Below, one piece after another: positions 6,903-22,432 of a stretch of DNA of 23,428 bases (positions within the stretch are counted from its first letter, which is position 1; each line of letters opens with the position of its first letter). The position numbers and the translations under genes are program-made. The stretch lies in the IMG/VR virus record IMGVR_UViG_3300043773_000805, positions 1 to 23,428 of that record. One strand, written 5' to 3'. The notes beneath the pieces are model-generated. The model was given only the letters and a program-made list of their open reading frames with translations, searched no databases and was not told where the DNA came from. The DNA comes from a virus.

Positions 6903-8150
6903 TTACGAGCAGATGATCTGAGTCAGCGCGCCGGTGCAGCGGCGGAAGATGATGGTCATTCCCTGGTTTGTGAATATAGGCTCCGAAGCGTGAACGAACT
7001 CAGCATAATGCTGACCCTTCTTCTCCAACGGATCTTCGCAGTCCGTATTGAACTTATAGGCACCAGTCACCCACTGCCACTCGCCCATGTAGTTGGTCGG
7101 CATCCACGCCAAATCGCCAACCCGATTGACGGGCCGCACAATGTGGCTCTTGAACACATACGGAGTCACGATGAACGCAGCCTCGTACGGAGCGGTCGTC
7201 CAGCTCGAATTGACGCTGAACACAGTACCCTTCGTTCCGCTCGCACTGGTGAACGGCTGAACCAGCGTGTACTTGCCACCGGCATAAGTGAAGCGGGGTG
7301 GGAACAGATTCGGCACATGGCGATAGTTCTTAATCACCCGGTTCGCGCCAATCCGCTTGAGCAACTCCGCACCAGCGCCACTGCCCTGATCAGCGAAACG
7401 CAAGTCATCGCGGAACGCCGGGTTGTTCTGAGCGATACGCTGCGAAGCCTCCAAGCCGATGTACAACGGGAACACCGGACCATCGCTGCTGTACGAGATG
7501 AAGCCGGAGCTATCAGGATTCGTTGCACCGTTACGAATCAGCGTAGCAGCCGCGACATCGAGCATCTCCTGAGTCAGCTCAGAGGTGGACTGATTGAGCG
7601 CCTGACCAGCAGAACCAGTCTGAATCCACGGGAACTCATTCACGCCAGAGGGAATCGTCTCGACCTGAGTAAAGGACGAGTCGGCCACTGCCTTGATCGC
7701 GAACTTCGCGAACGTATTCTGATAGCGAGTCTCCCATGAACGCTGAGCGCGGATCGAGAGCTTCTCCAAGTACACGCGCAAGAACGCCTCGACGCGGTGG
7801 TCATAGGTCAGATCATCCTTACACAAGAGCGGACCCTTGAGCGCGAAACGCTCAGGACTCCATGTAACGGAATTAAAACCAACCGGAACCTCGCTATAGG
7901 TGACATCGCAAGCGCCGCCGTTGTCGCCGGGGTTACCGCTCGCTAGGGTAATGGCCGACCACTCCTCAGCCGAAGTCGGCTCGATGCTGGTCGTGTTGTA
8001 CGAGGTCTGGGTCAAGCCAGTACCTTGAGGATACTCTCCGCGCTCAATCATATTGAGCCACATCGAGCGATACGAGGCGCGTTTATAGACGTCCTGCGCG
8101 AGCGACTCAGTCGCTACGGCGAAGGCGTTGAAGACATTAGGACAAGCCAT
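6903..8150 (-). CDS. Major capsid protein
   Basis: 415 residues, in the size range of HK97-fold capsid proteins. It contains a mid-protein segment rich in Arg/Phe and hydrophobics (FALKGPLLCKDDLTYDHRVEAFLRVYLEKL), a long helix-like region, and a C-terminal part (VFKSHIVRPVNRVGDLAWMP, then NFTDCEDP-type and KKGQHYAEFVHASEPI segments) that I associate with capsid proteins of metagenomic siphophages. Cysteines are unusually frequent for a capsid protein. It is followed by two terminators and preceded by a 199-base leader without another gene. No Shine-Dalgarno sequence precedes the ATG (TTTTTTCTCAAT). The scaffold-like gene lies on the opposite strand, which is unusual. Confidence 0.75.
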   Translation of the reverse strand: MACPNVFNAFAVATESLAQDVYKRASYRSMWLNMIERGEYPQGTGLTQTSYNTTSIEPTSAEEWSAITLASGNPGDNGGACDVTYSEVPVGFNSVTWSPERFALKGPLLCKDDLTYDHRVEAFLRVYLEKLSIRAQRSWETRYQNTFAKFAIKAVADSSFTQVETIPSGVNEFPWIQTGSAGQALNQSTSELTQEMLDVAAATLIRNGATNPDSSGFISYSSDGPVFPLYIGLEASQRIAQNNPAFRDDLRFADQGSGAGAELLKRIGANRVIKNYRHVPNLFPPRFTYAGGKYTLVQPFTSASGTKGTVFSVNSSWTTAPYEAAFIVTPYVFKSHIVRPVNRVGDLAWMPTNYMGEWQWVTGAYKFNTDCEDPLEKKGQHYAEFVHASEPIFTNQGMTIIFRRCTGALTQIICS

Positions 8151-13918: not shown

Positions 13919-14154
13919 AAGATCCAGCATCCTACCTCAGCGGCACCGAACTCCGCGTGTGCCAGCTAATCGCCGAGCGCCAGATGCGCGGCATAGAAAA
14001 ATACGGCACGACCGTCTCCGACAATCCGCTTCCCCTCCGCGCGTGGCTGCGTCATGCGCTGGAAGAGACACTGGACAACGCGATTTATCTCCAGCGCGCG
14101 ATTGAGCAGTTGGAGCGCAATGGGTTGGTCAGCGAGGAGGAGGTTGGCCAATGA
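13915..14154 (+). CDS. Small MazG-like / nucleotide-pyrophosphohydrolase-related protein
   Basis: 79 residues from TTG 13915, overlapping the previous TGA (TTGA). The pattern QMRGIEKYGTTV, then PLPLRAWLRHALEETLDNAIYLQRAIEQL, matches short phage proteins (KYGT and HALEExLDxAxYL) related to MazG-type all-alpha NTP pyrophosphohydrolases, where the acidic helix residues bind metal. Whether this short form is active is unknown. It is followed by an ATGA-coupled gene. Confidence 0.6.
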   Translation: MKDPASYLSGTELRVCQLIAERQMRGIEKYGTTVSDNPLPLRAWLRHALEETLDNAIYLQRAIEQLERNGLVSEEEVGQ

Positions 14155-14396
14155 GCCGCAACCTGTTCGCGAAGCCAGTCTACAAAGTCCAGCTAAGCGG
14201 CGCGATTGGCTGGTCCGATATGAAGGAGAAGGTTGTCAGCTACCAGACGGTCGAATTCTCCTCGCGCAAGGACGCGGAACGAGCGGCTCGTGAATTAAAT
14301 CCTGGCGAGTACACGCAGGGGCGAATTCGGGTCGTCCCGGTCGAATTGTCGGAGGACTACGATGTGTATCCCACCGCAGAACGATCCAAGCCGTGA
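14151..14396 (+). CDS. Small hypothetical protein
   Basis: 81 residues. The ATG overlaps the previous stop (ATGA). A strand-rich N terminus (FAKPVYKVQLSGAIGWSDM) is followed by a helix SRKDAERAARELNPG and a C-terminal strand RIRVVPVEL. Its TGA is overlapped by a GTG (GTGA at 14393) that opens the second-frame ORF of the methyltransferase locus. Family not recognised. Confidence 0.6.
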   Translation: MSRNLFAKPVYKVQLSGAIGWSDMKEKVVSYQTVEFSSRKDAERAARELNPGEYTQGRIRVVPVELSEDYDVYPTAERSKP

Positions 14397-15237
14397 ACCC
14401 ACCGTGCATCATCATCCCGTCAATCTTGTCGAGTTCTGCGCCGGATATTGCGGCATTGGAATTGGACTCAAGTCGGCTATCCCGCATCTACGCACTATCG
14501 CTTACGTCGAAAGGGAAGCATACGCCGTCGCAAATCTGGCTGCGAAAATTGAAGAGGGACGACTGGATGCAGCACCTATCTGGACGGACCTGCTCGCCTT
14601 CCCATACGCAAAATTTCGAGGACTGGTGGATATCGCGGCTGCGGGAATCCCCTGTCAGCCCCACAGCCACGCCGGACTCCGCAAAGGTGGAGCCGATGAA
14701 AGATTTCTCTTTAACGACTGGCTCATTGGACTCCAGCAAATGCGTCCGCGCTGCATCCTCATCGAAAACGTCGAAGGCTTGCTTACCAGTCTTATGCCAG
14801 ACGGAACTCTTTGCATCCGATGGACGCTGGAGAGATTGGAGCGCATGGGCTACCGCGTTGCGAGCGGACTATTCAGCGCGGAAGAATGCGGCGCGCCACA
14901 TATTAGGAAGCGGATCTGGATTCTGGCCTACGCCGACAGCGAACGAGGACAAGGATCAGAATGCTTCCTTCGCGACGCTTGCGCGACTGGACCGGGGGGG
15001 GCGTATCTTGCGACGGATAGCGACATTGACGATGCGTGGAAATGGCCCAGTGGACCAAATGAACCTCAACGATGGTGGGAACCGGCGCGAACGCTTGAAT
15101 CCAGCTTGGGTCGAAAGTCTGCTCGGTCTGCCGTCATCCTGGACCGCTTGCGACTCCTCGGAAACGGAGTCGTCCCCGCAACCGCCAGTCTAGCATTCCG
15201 CACTCTCGCAAAACAACTTTTCCAATTTTCCATCTAA
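14362..15237 (+). CDS. DNA (cytosine-5) methyltransferase (Dcm-like)
   Basis: 291 residues from ATG 14362; a GTG at 14404 is an alternative start. Order of motifs: FCAGYCGIGIGL (25-36, SAM-binding motif I), GIPCQPHSHAG (95-105, motif IV, catalytic Cys98), IENVEGL (134-140, motif VI, ENV), GAPHIRKRIWILA (177-189, motif VIII region), and a C-terminal GNGVVPATASLAF (267-279, motif X). It transfers a methyl group from SAM to cytosine C5 in DNA, often to protect phage DNA from restriction. The target-recognition region is short and weakly conserved here. The gene is overlapped along almost its full length by another ORF in a different frame. Confidence 0.85.
   Translation: MCIPPQNDPSREPTVHHHPVNLVEFCAGYCGIGIGLKSAIPHLRTIAYVEREAYAVANLAAKIEEGRLDAAPIWTDLLAFPYAKFRGLVDIAAAGIPCQPHSHAGLRKGGADERFLFNDWLIGLQQMRPRCILIENVEGLLTSLMPDGTLCIRWTLERLERMGYRVASGLFSAEECGAPHIRKRIWILAYADSERGQGSECFLRDACATGPGGAYLATDSDIDDAWKWPSGPNEPQRWWEPARTLESSLGRKSARSAVILDRLRLLGNGVVPATASLAFRTLAKQLFQFSI
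14393..15193 (+). CDS. Overlapping second-frame ORF with phage methylase-associated domain
   Basis: 266 residues from GTG 14393, which overlaps the upstream TGA exactly like other coupled starts here. The last 160 residues look like a real protein: SSSKTSKACLP, then SDGRWRDWSAWATALRADYSAR, FWPTPTA (177-183) and LNPAWVESLLGLPSSWT (235-251). The WPTPTA and LNPxWVExLxGxPxxWT signatures are familiar, from memory, from phage proteins found next to or fused with Dcm-type methylases. Meanwhile the other frame encodes methyltransferase motif X over the same bases. The first 90 residues, opposite motifs I-IV, are not recognised. The function is unknown, perhaps linked to target recognition. It could still be an uninterrupted shadow frame. 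Confidence 0.55.
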   Translation: MNPPCIIIPSILSSSAPDIAALELDSSRLSRIYALSLTSKGKHTPSQIWLRKLKRDDWMQHLSGRTCSPSHTQNFEDWWISRLRESPVSPTATPDSAKVEPMKDFSLTTGSLDSSKCVRAASSSKTSKACLPVLCQTELFASDGRWRDWSAWATALRADYSARKNAARHILGSGSGFWPTPTANEDKDQNASFATLARLDRGGRILRRIATLTMRGNGPVDQMNLNDGGNRRERLNPAWVESLLGLPSSWTACDSSETESSPQPPV

Positions 15238-15606
15238 CTTCTCCAATCCGCCCCGCGCATCTAACTTGTCGGCCATTCTATCCCCTATCCAAGAGCGTGA
15301 AAATCTATCCATCCGCCCCCTCGCCCCTACGCGTCGCCAACCCCGCAACGGTATCAACACGTCATTCGCCAATCAAAAACGCTCTACAGCCCCTTTCTGA
15401 GCGATTGAACAGCATGTCGAACGAGCGATTGAGCGGTCTTGGAGGGGTTTCAATTCCGCCGCTGACTGCGTCCGCCCCGTCAGGGAGCGGTTCAAGCAAG
15501 TCTGCGAAAGCGGAATTGTACTCCCTATTTATGGGGAGTTAAGTAACTCCCAATAGGGGAGATAGCGGTAACCATGCTAACTTTCTGTTAGCCAAAAGTG
15601 GGTTAG
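15238..15606. other. Gene-poor region with possible small ORF
   Basis: 369 bases without a confident gene. A GTG-started frame at 15297-15542 (81 residues, Ser/Pro/Ala-rich, internal ATG at 15414 giving MSNERLSGLGG and onwards) is possible, but it has no Shine-Dalgarno sequence and no recognisable family. The right part holds the palindrome at 15523-15558 and the inverted repeat at 15577-15617, so a regulatory role is more likely than coding. Confidence 0.4.
15523..15558. repeat. Long imperfect palindrome upstream of early gene
   Basis: GGGAGTTA-AG-TAACTCCC (15534-15551) is a perfect 8-bp inverted repeat with a 2-base centre. It is extended outward by CCCTATT (15523-15529) and AATAGGG (15552-15558), with a four-base bulge on the left. 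No T-run follows, so it is a candidate operator, cruciform or replication-related site rather than a terminator. Confidence 0.6.
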
Positions 15607-15617
15607 ATGAAAGTTAG
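15577..15617. repeat. Inverted repeat spanning the start of the 197-residue gene
   Basis: CTAACTTTC (15577-15585) and GAAAGTTAG (15609-15617) are perfect complements. The right arm covers the G of the ATG at 15607. A shorter alternative stem GCTAAC/GTTAGC (15576-15592) competes for the left arm. If folded in mRNA, the long form would bury the start codon. Confidence 0.4.
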
Positions 15618-16200
15618 TTTGGGAGATGTTGACAATATCGAAACGAAGAGTGAATTTAAAGTTCGTATGAGCTATCTAGAAAACGGATCGACGCACCGGA
15701 GCCTGTTCCGGTTAATGCCGCCCCTGCATCACGATGCGGACCCGAACCGCTCGCAAGTTCTGGCCTACATTCGGGAAAATCTGATTTGCGATATCGGGCG
15801 GTCGATACGGGCGTTCAACTCGATGAGGCATCCCAAGTCGAAGGTGCTGGTCTTCGATCAAGTCCACCGGATGTGGAAGGGCTGCGACTGGTTGCCCTCC
15901 GATGAGAACTCCAAGGACGCCATGATCTTGGTCGAGCATCGGGCATTGGAACGCCGGGTCATCGCGATGGATGGCGAACTGCGAAAGGCTCTCAAAGAAA
16001 TCAAGAGGCTGAACAAGCAGATGGCCGACTTGTATTCCGATGCGAAGACGATGGGGGAGTCTGGTGGTGACGAGAATCAGAAAACTCTGGTCGAGGAGTT
16101 TAACGAAATATTTGGAAAAAAGAGCGAAAAACCCAGCAAAACCAAGCATCAGCAACCGCTCAACTCCATCGAATCGATGGTTGCCGCAGCTTGGAAGTGA
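15607..16200 (+). CDS. Hypothetical protein with C-terminal coiled coil
   Basis: 197 residues. The N-terminal part is mixed alpha/beta and basic (FKVRMSYLENGSTHRSLFRLM, then VLAYIRENLICDIGRSIRAF). A helix around residues 118-145 (LERRVIAMDGELRKALKEIKRLNKQMADLY) looks like a coiled coil. The C-terminal tail is Lys-rich and disordered. No Shine-Dalgarno sequence precedes the ATG. The start sits in an inverted repeat. Family not recognised. It is first after the gene-poor region, so an early regulator is possible. Confidence 0.6.
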   Translation: MKVSLGDVDNIETKSEFKVRMSYLENGSTHRSLFRLMPPLHHDADPNRSQVLAYIRENLICDIGRSIRAFNSMRHPKSKVLVFDQVHRMWKGCDWLPSDENSKDAMILVEHRALERRVIAMDGELRKALKEIKRLNKQMADLYSDAKTMGESGGDENQKTLVEEFNEIFGKKSEKPSKTKHQQPLNSIESMVAAAWK

Positions 16201-16261
16201 GAAACATGAAAAAAGATTTGACTCGACCTGATGCAACCCATAACTTGTCACAACGATTTTT

Positions 16262-16336
16262 TGCAATCAGGCGTAGAGTGCGTCGAGGTGGCGCAACGAG
16301 GTTTCGGATTTTACCTGTAATGATCACCTGATTGCA
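16262..16336. repeat. 10-bp inverted repeat upstream of the HTH gene
   Basis: TGCAATCAGG (16262-16271) and CCTGATTGCA (16327-16336) are perfect inverted copies flanking 55 bases in the gap before the HTH gene at 16350. They might be paired operator half-sites for the neighbouring HTH protein. Such a match can arise by chance at this spacing. Confidence 0.3.
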
Positions 16337-17188: not shown

Positions 17189-18013
17189 ATGAGTAATACA
17201 TCGATATCAGTCGCGGCAAATCAGCCGCAGTCACTTGAACAGCAGCCTCAATCAGGAGCAGACTTCTACTCCCAAGCATGCACGTCTTTAGACGCTGTGA
17301 AGACGCTTGGAGAGTGGATGGCCCACTCAGGACTCTTTGGACTTACCAAGGCCGAGCAAGGGTATGTTCTGGCACTTGAGTGCATTGCGAGTCAGCAAAC
17401 TCCGCTGACGTGGAAGAGGTCTAACCACGTCATAAATGGCCAGATTGCCATGAAATCCGAGGCTATGTTGTCCGGTCTAATGGATGCAGGGTGGGACGTG
17501 GATTGGGTGCAATTTGACGCCCAAGCTGCCATTGCTGACTTTTGCAAGGGGCAGAAGAAGATCCGTATTTCGTTTACGACTGAAGATGCAAAGTTGGCCG
17601 GTTTGCTTCCTGCTAAAGCGGGGAGTGGTTGGCAGAAATTCCCAGCAGCTATGATGCGTGCGCGTCTTGTGAGTCTCGCCACAAGGATGCTCGACCCCCG
17701 CATTACTCAGGGTCGATATTGCGTTGAAGAAGTAGCCGACTTCTCCAACCCTTCACCAACACCCACCATCACCGCTACGACGCGCCAGACGGTCAACGTG
17801 ACGCCGGAACCAGCCTTCTCGCTCGTTGAGAAGTTAGAGCAGATTCTTGAGCCACATTCTGATATCGCCAATGCGTTCCTCGTCAGCAAGAACCTGATCA
17901 AGGAAGGCCAGAACTTCCGCGATGTATCCACGAAGGTGGCCAACATGATCCTCGCTGATGCGAGTGGTTTCATTACCAAAGCAACCGCGTTCGCTAACCC
18001 GCCCACCGAATGA
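17189..18013 (+). CDS. RecT-like ssDNA-annealing protein
   Basis: 274 residues. The segment KAEQGYVLALECIASQQTPL, then NHVINGQIAMKSEAMLSGLMDAGW and KFPAAMMRARLVSLATRMLDP, then GRYCVEEV, follows the RecT/Redbeta-type order (recombinase core, the P..MxRARxxS segment, then a YxxEEV-like end). Such proteins anneal complementary single strands during phage recombination and replication. The N terminus (about 1-25) is Gln/Ser-rich and disordered, and the C-terminal 80 residues form a separate helical tail. It is coupled by ATGA to the exonuclease gene, the usual partner. Confidence 0.7.
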   Translation: MSNTSISVAANQPQSLEQQPQSGADFYSQACTSLDAVKTLGEWMAHSGLFGLTKAEQGYVLALECIASQQTPLTWKRSNHVINGQIAMKSEAMLSGLMDAGWDVDWVQFDAQAAIADFCKGQKKIRISFTTEDAKLAGLLPAKAGSGWQKFPAAMMRARLVSLATRMLDPRITQGRYCVEEVADFSNPSPTPTITATTRQTVNVTPEPAFSLVEKLEQILEPHSDIANAFLVSKNLIKEGQNFRDVSTKVANMILADASGFITKATAFANPPTE

Positions 18014-18804
18014 GCATCCTCAACCAACACGTCAATCTCGACATGCCAGCGGAGAAGTATCACGCCGTTGATGCTCTCTCGAAGAGCATGATGTCGAAGA
18101 TCCTCAAGTCCCCGGCTCATTACAAAGCCGCGCTGGAGGAGCATCAGGAGCCGAGCAAGGCCATGCAGATGGGTACGGCGATTCATACCGCTGTATTAGA
18201 GCCGCAACTCTACTCGCAAGTCGTCGCCGTTATTCCGCCGGACATCGATGGACGCAACAAAGAAGGCAAAGCGTGGAAGGAGCAGCATAAGAGCCGCATC
18301 CACCTGACTCACGCTGAAGACCTCGATGTGCAAGGCGTGGCCAACAGTGTCCGTCGTCATCCGTTCTGGGACATCATTCATCTGCCGCACAGGATCGAAG
18401 CCAGCGTGTTCGCTCAGGACGAGGAAACCGGCATTGCTCTCAAGGCACGTCCCGATCTGTGGATCGAGGGTCATACCCTCGTGGACGTAAAGACGACCGA
18501 CGACGCATCGCCCGAGGCGTTCCTGCGAACCATCGCCTCGTTCGGCTATCACATTCAGGCCGCGCACTATCTGGAGATGACTGGCGCTGATAGCTTCATC
18601 TTCGTGGCGGTCGAGCGTAAGGCTCCGTATGCTGTCGCCATCTATCGACTGGATGCCGAATGGCTTCAGGCTGGTGCGAATCTGCGACGCAAAGCAATCT
18701 CGACGCTGCACGAATGCCGCGCACTGGACAGTTGGCCAGCCTATCCAACAGCGACACAAACCCTTTCATGCCCTAAGTGGGTTCTGAATAAATCCGAAAA
18801 CTAA
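18010..18804 (+). CDS. RecE/YqaJ-type PD-(D/E)XK exonuclease
   Basis: 264 residues. The substrate/phosphate-site motif MGTAIHTAVLEP (54-65), Glu130 in HRIEASVF, ARPDLWIEG (Asp149), VDVKTTDD (Asp159-x-Lys161) and the QxxxY motif in YHIQAAHY (180-187) are in the order of the lambda-exo/YqaJ/RecE nuclease family. It would resect double-strand ends 5' to 3' and hand the 3' strand to the RecT-like partner encoded just upstream (ATGA overlap). No Shine-Dalgarno sequence is obvious. Confidence 0.85.
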   Translation: MSILNQHVNLDMPAEKYHAVDALSKSMMSKILKSPAHYKAALEEHQEPSKAMQMGTAIHTAVLEPQLYSQVVAVIPPDIDGRNKEGKAWKEQHKSRIHLTHAEDLDVQGVANSVRRHPFWDIIHLPHRIEASVFAQDEETGIALKARPDLWIEGHTLVDVKTTDDASPEAFLRTIASFGYHIQAAHYLEMTGADSFIFVAVERKAPYAVAIYRLDAEWLQAGANLRRKAISTLHECRALDSWPAYPTATQTLSCPKWVLNKSEN

Positions 18805-21355: not shown

Positions 21356-22432
21356 ATGAATCTAAGAGAATACCAACAAAAAGCAGTAGAGTGGGCCAAA
21401 ACTAGCGATGGACTGATCATCGCCCCCGCCGGTAGCGGTAAGACATGGATTGCCGCATCGATCATCAAGAACTATCAAAACTGCGGATCTGGATTGAGAT
21501 TCGGATGGCTTGCTCCGACCAGAGAAACATGCCAGCAAGCGCGCACATCGCTCCGTGTTGCCGGTGTGCCTGATGAGATTGTCGAAGTTCGCTGTCCGCA
21601 TGAGTCAGTGGACTTCAGCAAGAAGGACATGCTCATCGTGGACGAAGCGAAGCACAGCGCCGCCGCTGGATGGCGTCGCATCATCGAGTCCTGTAACGGT
21701 ATACGTTATGGCTTCGACGCCACTCCTTGGAGCGACGATCCAGACCGGAACACGGTAACACGAACGCTCTTCCACAACCGCACCTACGAGATAAACCGCA
21801 ACGACATTGGCGATTCATTGGCCGACGCTTACCTCGAAATCAGCGATGCCACAGACCTCAACATCCAGCAGAAGATCGACGACAACATCGACCGGCTCTT
21901 CAACACTCGCGTCAAGTACATGCGGATCAGGGAGGATGAACTCAAACGGATGTGCGCTTGGGAATCGATTGTCGATATCGGCATCTGCCAGAACCGCGAG
22001 CGCAACAAATACGCCATCAACTACGCGGTCGAACACCTTGACATGCAGACGCTCATCCTCATTCCGCGCATCACGCTGGGAGAGGACTACGAACACCAGA
22101 TTCCGAATTCTCGGCTCGTTCACTCCAAGATCGGCAAGAAGGACCGGCGCGCTTACATGGAGGAATTCAAGGCTGGTAACCTGCGGACCATGATCGCCAC
22201 AAGCTTGGCCGACGAAGGATTGGATCTGCCCAACGTCGAACTGCTAATTATGGTCAGCGGCGGTCGGTCGTCGCAGAAGACCATCCAGCGAGCGAGTCGG
22301 GCATTGCGGAAAACAGAAACCAAGAACTGCGCGACAATCGTAGATTTCTCTGACAAATTCCACCCCATCGGAGCGTTCCACGCTAAGAAGCGCATGACCT
22401 GCTACCGTGAACTAGGTTGTATTTTCCAATGA
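21356..22432 (+). CDS. SF2 DNA helicase
   Basis: 358 residues. An N-terminal LREYQQKAV (Q-tip region) precedes Walker A APAGSGKT (23-30), the Walker B box DEAK (96-99, in place of DEAH), and FDATPW (120-125, motif III). The C-terminal lobe carries TSLADEGLDLP (282-292, motif V) and QRASRALRK (311-319, motif VI with arginine finger). It is a typical compact phage RecG/UvsW-like SF2 enzyme that would remodel forks or recombination intermediates. It is coupled by ATGA to the SSB gene. Confidence 0.85.
   Translation: MNLREYQQKAVEWAKTSDGLIIAPAGSGKTWIAASIIKNYQNCGSGLRFGWLAPTRETCQQARTSLRVAGVPDEIVEVRCPHESVDFSKKDMLIVDEAKHSAAAGWRRIIESCNGIRYGFDATPWSDDPDRNTVTRTLFHNRTYEINRNDIGDSLADAYLEISDATDLNIQQKIDDNIDRLFNTRVKYMRIREDELKRMCAWESIVDIGICQNRERNKYAINYAVEHLDMQTLILIPRITLGEDYEHQIPNSRLVHSKIGKKDRRAYMEEFKAGNLRTMIATSLADEGLDLPNVELLIMVSGGRSSQKTIQRASRALRKTETKNCATIVDFSDKFHPIGAFHAKKRMTCYRELGCIFQ

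Follow-up and report, generated by a model that had tools for sequence, protein, structure and literature searches.

The window, a 23,428-nucleotide stretch of viral DNA, probably encodes at one locus the two chains of a heterodimeric C5-cytosine methyltransferase (MTase) of the M.EcoHK31I kind. According to the list of open reading frames and translations of the window, the MTase ORF (14362-15237, plus strand, 291 aa) is overlapped on the same strand, in phase +1, by a second ORF with a GTG start (frame 2, or beta, open for 266 codons as predicted), and around 800 shared bases are read as two different proteins in two reading frames (Table 1). The original prediction, made from the letters of the sequence, was that two family-like proteins overlap here and that, if both are translated, this would be overprinting at full gene scale. 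It is supported by our analysis: a search of protein families found homologues of the frame-2 product that are annotated as genes elsewhere, and in relatives both near and remote the second frame has remained open and conserved, with neither stop codons nor unconstrained change that would speak against it.

Table 1. Predicted features of the dual-coded MTase locus (window positions).
Feature	Position	Strand	Remarks
Alpha frame: C5-cytosine methyltransferase of 277 aa from the probable GTG start at 14404, with motifs I-VIII and X	14404..15237	+	PF00145, conserved start
Beta frame: overlapping ORF in phase +1, 266 aa, phrog_1008-like	14393..15193	+	Shuffle test, dNN/dNS, phrog_1008
GTGA, shared by the frame-2 start codon and the stop codon of the upstream gene (14151-14396)	14393..14396	+	GTGA/ATGA in relatives
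MTase motif I (FCAGYCGIG)	14434..14460	+	Alpha frame
MTase motif IV with catalytic Cys (GIPCQPHS)	14644..14667	+	Alpha frame; invariant in alignment A1
MTase motif VI (ENVEG)	14764..14778	+	Alpha frame
MTase motif VIII region (HIRKRIWILAYADSE)	14899..14943	+	Alpha frame
MTase motif X (RLRLLGNGVVP)	15145..15177	+	Alpha frame
Beta Trp-rich conserved helix (WRDWSAWATALRADYSARKNAARH)	14828..14899	+	14800-15000 most constrained in both frames; AF2 helix 149-168, pLDDT ~80-87
Beta FWPTPTAN module	14921..14944	+	In WPTPxA, conservation of W, P, T, P and A exceeds the MTase echo (z 10-28)
Beta segment, motif IX (RLNPAWVESLLGLPSSWT)	15092..15145	+	HMM of such segments matches class D frame-0 motif IX

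The MTase frame (alpha, frame 0 in the comparisons below) matches PF00145 (1.7e-23) and phrog_363 (1e-40). The C5-cytosine MTase motifs I, IV (PCQ), VI (ENV), VIII and X that had been read from this frame are all present, and they are invariant in alignment A1. The bases of motif X also encode the end of frame 2 (...ACDSSETESSP), as originally pointed out. Neither a TRD nor motif IX was found in the alpha chain: the PF00145 match spans profile positions 2-165 of 324, that is, it ends at motif VIII, an HMM of motif IX has no match in frame 0, and the approximately 85 residues between motifs VIII and X contain no recognisable TRD.

The MTase frame is open from the ATG at 14362, as predicted, but this is not its likeliest start. 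Upstream of the 14404 region it is closed in several close relatives, and an MTase ATG or GTG is conserved shortly downstream of the frame-2 start in L002-L017, at a distance of 11 nt in most of them. The MTase therefore probably starts at the conserved [A/G]TG at 14404 (MHHHPVNLVEFC...), 11 nt after the GTG of frame 2, which would make the latter the first, coupled start. The stop-start overlap of frame 2 with the upstream gene, already noticed in the window, recurs in these 16 close relatives, as GTGA in the window group and ATGA in L012-L017, and represents a putative translational coupling. In 5,000 synonymous shuffles with the MTase protein and codon usage fixed, a +1 run of this length was rare (p = 0.002-0.003), and the +2 frame was ordinary (p 0.39-0.46). 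In the converse test, in which frame 2 was kept, an open MTase frame was rarer still (p = 0.0002).

Some other features of the window may be mentioned. A RecT-like annealing protein, exonuclease VIII and a DNA helicase are recognised by PHROGs at 17189-18804 and 21356-22432, which places the MTase near a replication/recombination module. Short inverted repeats (ACTCCCTATTTATGGGGAGT, AACTCCCAATAGGGGAG) lie at 15520-15560, just upstream of the gene at 15607, and are perhaps an operator. Finally, there are two long antisense open frames that may be due to chance, one of 249 aa (6990-7739, plus strand, opposite 6903-8150 on the minus strand) and one of 184 aa (15712-16266, minus strand, opposite 15607-16200 on the plus strand).

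The frame-2 product matches phrog_1008 (4.6e-8), and no family for it is present in Pfam and NCBIfam. PHROG families 1008 and 16143, both of which contain frame-2 proteins, are labelled 'DNA methyltransferase'; this label is misleading, as the proteins are the overlapping product and not the catalytic chain. In addition to phrog_1008, annotated homologues include gp63 of Paenibacillus phage Lily ('g62 internal gene'), and a relative, orf14 of phage MM1, is annotated as 'C5 methyltransferase beta subunit'. In Acidovorax phage Alfacinha3, gp46 (L030, 1493-2659), deposited as a cytosine-specific methyltransferase, is the frame-2 protein, and the real MTase frame (from 1495) carries no annotation. 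In the variable regions of L001, L018, L021 and L030, between motifs VIII and X, the MTase frame harbors MADTNGxRxG-like repeats, which coincide with W-x-T-P modules in frame 2, the number of modules differing among these phages. AF2 models of beta (mean pLDDT 59) are too poor to place its predicted fold; a fold search returned no match in PDB and one uncharacterised phage protein in BFVD. Sequence searches of PDB with frame-2 profiles gave none, or chance apolipoprotein-like matches, and a profile of diverse frame-2 proteins is too variable for scanning contigs.

Conservation of the double coding extends to hundreds of methyltransferase genes in phages and prophages. Among 170 MTase loci, most of them gathered by MTase similarity only and four (L001, L012, L018 and L021) via frame 2, the +1 run was significantly long (p <= 0.05, codon shuffles) in 158, as opposed to 4 for the +2 frame. 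Below 55% G+C it was significant in 109 of 110 loci; the non-significant loci of high G+C include L081, L095, L098, L104 and L105, and the shuffle test has little power at very high G+C. In class A, which comprises the window, phage C75C1, Salmonella phage S9-5 and Synechococcus phage Yong-M2-251, the +1 frame is open across nearly the whole MTase; in C75C1 it is open for 460 codons, against 35 stops in the +2 frame. The +1 ORF of class B, to which Paenibacillus phage Lily belongs among others, runs from about codon 60-75 to the end. No such +1 ORF was found in the restriction-linked or other plasmid MTases L195, L197, L200, L201 and L202. Three plasmid MTases first taken as controls do have long +1 runs: L196 from Listeria (p 0.003) looks like class C, L198 belongs to class D, and L199 from Nostoc (p 0.01) is a short fragment.

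A search of GTDB genomes with the frame-2 profile gave 80 loci. Under a strict motif criterion the overlapped MTase frame is intact in 73 of them and truncated or motif-incomplete in the remaining 7. The titles of the 80 loci span some ten phyla (Bacillota, Bacteroidota, Pseudomonadota, Desulfobacterota, Actinomycetota, Chloroflexota, Acidobacteriota, Verrucomicrobiota, Calditrichota and Chlorobiota), host assignments that are indicative only, many genomes being metagenome bins and the matches possibly prophages or stray phage contigs.

The division of the motifs between the frames was followed through class D, represented by a Streptomyces plasmid MTase (L198) and by phage loci such as L366-L368, L374 and L376-L378. 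Here the WVE segment is read in frame 0 and, immediately preceding motif X, occupies the place of motif IX. In L198, L366, L367, L374, L376 and L377 the +1 ORF ends at the very residue where the frame-0 motif IX begins, and it looks as if one module had switched frames. An HMM of motif IX built only from the frame-2 segments of classes A and B matches the frame-0 proteins of 14 of the 29 loci of the class D group (iE 1.9e-10 to 4.5e-5), before motif X wherever X is present. The same HMM has no match to restriction-linked or shuffled proteins, nor to the frame-0 proteins of classes A and B (170 targets), except in L121. The latter (1501-2262) is a prophage copy with the WPTP and WVE segments in frame 0, apparently frameshifted and probably broken. 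A direct hhalign comparison with canonical MTases aligns the same place, weakly (E 0.004); the link of the beta segment to the canonical motif IX runs through class D. We conclude from these comparisons that motif IX of classes A and B is encoded in frame 2 and that motif X stays in frame 0. For most dual-coded MTases the match to Pfam goes no further than motif VIII, and for restriction-linked ones it reaches the end; this end-point is not specific, since the match also stops after motif VIII in class D and extends to 253 in C75C1, which has a long variable region.

In class C (phage MM1 and 70-odd relatives, L286-L364) the frame-0 MTase is complete in most loci, with a canonical motif IX (LTPRECWRLQGFP), and a nested +1 ORF covers roughly codon 48 to motif VIII; in MM1 (L286) the MTase lies at 1303-2460 and the nested ORF at 1454-1879. 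All 73 class C loci tested were significant by shuffle, and conservation in the columns covered by the nested ORF reaches Z = 18-44 per 30 columns versus 0-4 outside. Since these MTases are complete and nevertheless keep the nested ORF, its product should have a role beyond motif IX, and beta is not only a carrier of this motif; frame 2 thus probably does more than supply it. A resemblance by eye between the class C segment 'DILEExVDEKYFLS' and a canonical MTase segment (L200, DILEKSVDNKYTLS) was suggestive, was not significant and was not used. Many frame-2 proteins of classes B and C (L111-L190, L206-L285 and A7) start with EQLTLF-, QLTLF- or QMSLF-like peptides, whose resemblance to the sliding-clamp binding pentapeptide may serve as a lead only.

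These features are what would be expected if frame 2 encoded an independent small accessory protein that shares only the locus with the MTase, for example one docking the MTase to the replication clamp, or an anti-restriction factor, with a C-terminal motif IX that was acquired secondarily and may not serve catalysis. The nested ORF of the complete class C enzymes and the clamp-like peptides agree with such a protein, as does the relatedness of the N-terminal halves of the class B and class C frame-2 proteins (hhalign E 7e-6). It nonetheless appears unlikely. The alpha chains of classes A and B have no motif IX of their own and their beta has one; no clear example of the free-standing frame-2 gene that had been expected was found among the 80 bacterial-genome loci; and the beta of the window has no QxxLF peptide.

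In a two-chain enzyme, which we prefer, the ribosome would enter frame 2 (beta) of the window at GTG 14393, coupled to the upstream gene, and initiation in frame 1 (alpha) would follow 11 nt later, at 14404. Alpha would be the catalytic large domain carrying motifs I-VIII and X, and beta would supply motif IX and, probably, W-x-T-P modules helping to read the DNA target. Joined in a single enzyme, the two chains would methylate the DNA of the phage, presumably as a protection from host restriction. The comparisons show that both frames are conserved as protein, that alpha is devoid of motif IX and that the beta C-terminus is this motif; we infer that both chains are translated and assemble, that beta takes part in reading the target and that the enzyme acts against restriction. 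An SD-like sequence precedes the frame-2 start in 30/41 class B loci (controls, 79/583) and in 29/53 class C loci (controls, 116/1022). Both these sequences and the stop-start overlaps favour independent initiation over programmed ribosomal frameshifting, by which the +1 frame would be read as an alternative C-terminus of the same chain. The order of the motifs on one message, with the frame-2 motif IX after the frame-0 motifs I-VIII, would be compatible with a shift, but we hold this to be very improbable: frame 2 has a coupled start and SD-like signals of its own, it is conserved upstream of any sensible shift site, and a shift that gained motif IX would lose motif X, such that a complete chain would presumably need two shifts.

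Purifying selection acts on both frames in close relatives. When synonymous and nonsynonymous changes were compared in each frame of the window and its relatives, by site-class counts with an OLGenie-like method, dNN/dNS of frame 2 was 0.17-0.22 within the window group and 0.25-0.33 between groups, with bootstrap 95% limits below 0.6 in four comparisons with the window, and dNN/dSN of the MTase frame was 0.10-0.18. By segment, the frame-2 ratio is relaxed at 14590-14800 (1.27), which overlaps the low-confidence stretch of the AF2 models (residues 87-141), and falls to 0.05 at 14800-15000 and 0.22 at 15000-15190. Moreover, divergence from the window at third codon positions is 0.06-0.20 in the MTase versus 0.19-0.67 in flanking genes of the same genomes; the within-gene ratios weigh more, because recombination could cause part of this gap. 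The pattern points to selection at the protein level and argues against a DNA- or RNA-level signal, since silent changes in frame 2 have been tolerated, unlike replacements.

Part of the resemblance that first drew attention to frame 2 is an echo of the MTase. WPTPTA, named in the original prediction as a family signature, is the +1 reading of the MTase segment ILAYADS, and LNPxWVExLMGxPxGWT that of VEPxVGRVADGxPxRVDRL. Homology was accordingly not inferred from a signature alone, and a null that removes the echo was needed: 97 non-redundant MTases were aligned and synonymous codons shuffled within each, every MTase protein being kept. Frame-2 column conservation lies 80 SD above this null, a Z that is inflated by related sequences and is a gauge of the excess, not a probability. 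In the motif IX segment, the frame-2 residues P (92%), M (89%), E (88%) and P (85%) each outdo the MTase residue that shares their column, and an MTase Leu that hardly varies underlies a frame-2 Trp (86%, z = 29); from motif IV to motif X the frame-2 columns of the 97 loci are nearly free of stops. The echo is hence real for the signatures, which are also conserved beyond it, and the codon shuffles reject it as a full explanation. That frame 2 is an untranslated by-product of this echo and of base composition, as the literal +1 readings and the frequently open +1 frame of the high-G+C loci might suggest, is almost certainly wrong, being contradicted by the excess that persists after shuffling, the 0.2-0.3 ratios, the near-universal significance below 55% G+C and the restriction-linked and plasmid MTases without such an ORF, unless shuffles and dNN/dNS share an unseen bias.

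The division of the enzyme proposed here has a known parallel. M.EcoHK31I (YGGCCR; Lee, Kam and Shaw 1995, NAR 23:103) is a two-polypeptide C5 MTase with motifs I-VIII and X in the large chain, which also holds its predicted TRD, and motif IX in the small chain (PMC3404938). The window similarly has motifs I-VIII and X without IX in its large chain and IX in its small chain, a likeness in the division of motifs. Because the predicted TRD of M.EcoHK31I sits in the large chain, a TRD role of beta is uncertain. The gene of the M.EcoHK31I small chain reportedly lies inside that of the large chain in another frame, and the small-chain gene of the window likewise overlaps its large-chain gene in another frame. 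In contrast to M.EcoHK31I, beta of the window has, through stop-start coupling, an earlier start than alpha and extends over nearly all of the gene; furthermore, M.EcoHK31I belongs to a restriction-modification system, whereas the window is a phage locus in which no adjacent restriction gene was seen. M.AquI (CYCGRG) is also a C5 MTase in two polypeptides, its small chain comprising the distal variable region with motifs IX and X (PMC3404938); unlike in M.AquI, motif X of the window is in the large chain (frame 0).

Among phages, orf13/orf14 of MM1 (DQ113772, L286) were deposited as C5 methyltransferase alpha and beta subunit, and gp63 of phage Lily is named after gp62, in which it is nested (NC_028841, L028). 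As in the window, both have a nested +1 ORF inside a phage C5 MTase gene, and it was noticed by annotators. MM1 has a complete alpha that includes a motif IX, and its beta goes no further than motif VIII; in Lily, of class B, the nested ORF starts inside alpha. In ShiLan-type genes, phage methylases contain an out-of-frame HNH endonuclease (PMC11855218). A second frame is thus used inside a phage methylase gene there too, but as a mobile insertion encoding a homing nuclease, whereas in the window the methylase's own coding sequence is overlapped. No description of a phage-wide MTase overlap was found in the literature searched, which consisted of open-licence papers and left most subscription papers outside, and only one such enzyme seems to be well known. 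Double coding of an MTase is of a kind already known and apparently little noticed, and its mechanism is directly testable.

To our knowledge, it is rare in dsDNA phages that two frames in a long overlap on one strand are both strongly conserved across deep divergence. On balance we favour the view that dual coding is the rule for C5 MTases in these phage and prophage lineages, whose hosts span around ten phyla, and that the pair is among the most widespread and oldest overlapping pairs in dsDNA phages. Motif IX, which is in frame 2 in classes A and B and in frame 0 in C and D, would have changed frames, part of the enzyme thereby being taken over by a nested protein that already existed, and M.EcoHK31I would be the visible tip of a phage-wide design. 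Hundreds of phage 'DNA methyltransferase' genes would then be half-annotated, their second chain being absent, labelled hypothetical or confused with the enzyme. Should both chains be needed, a recoded gene expressing the annotated frame would lose beta and yield a dead enzyme. The family would also constitute a large natural data set on the origin, persistence and domain exchange of overlapping genes.
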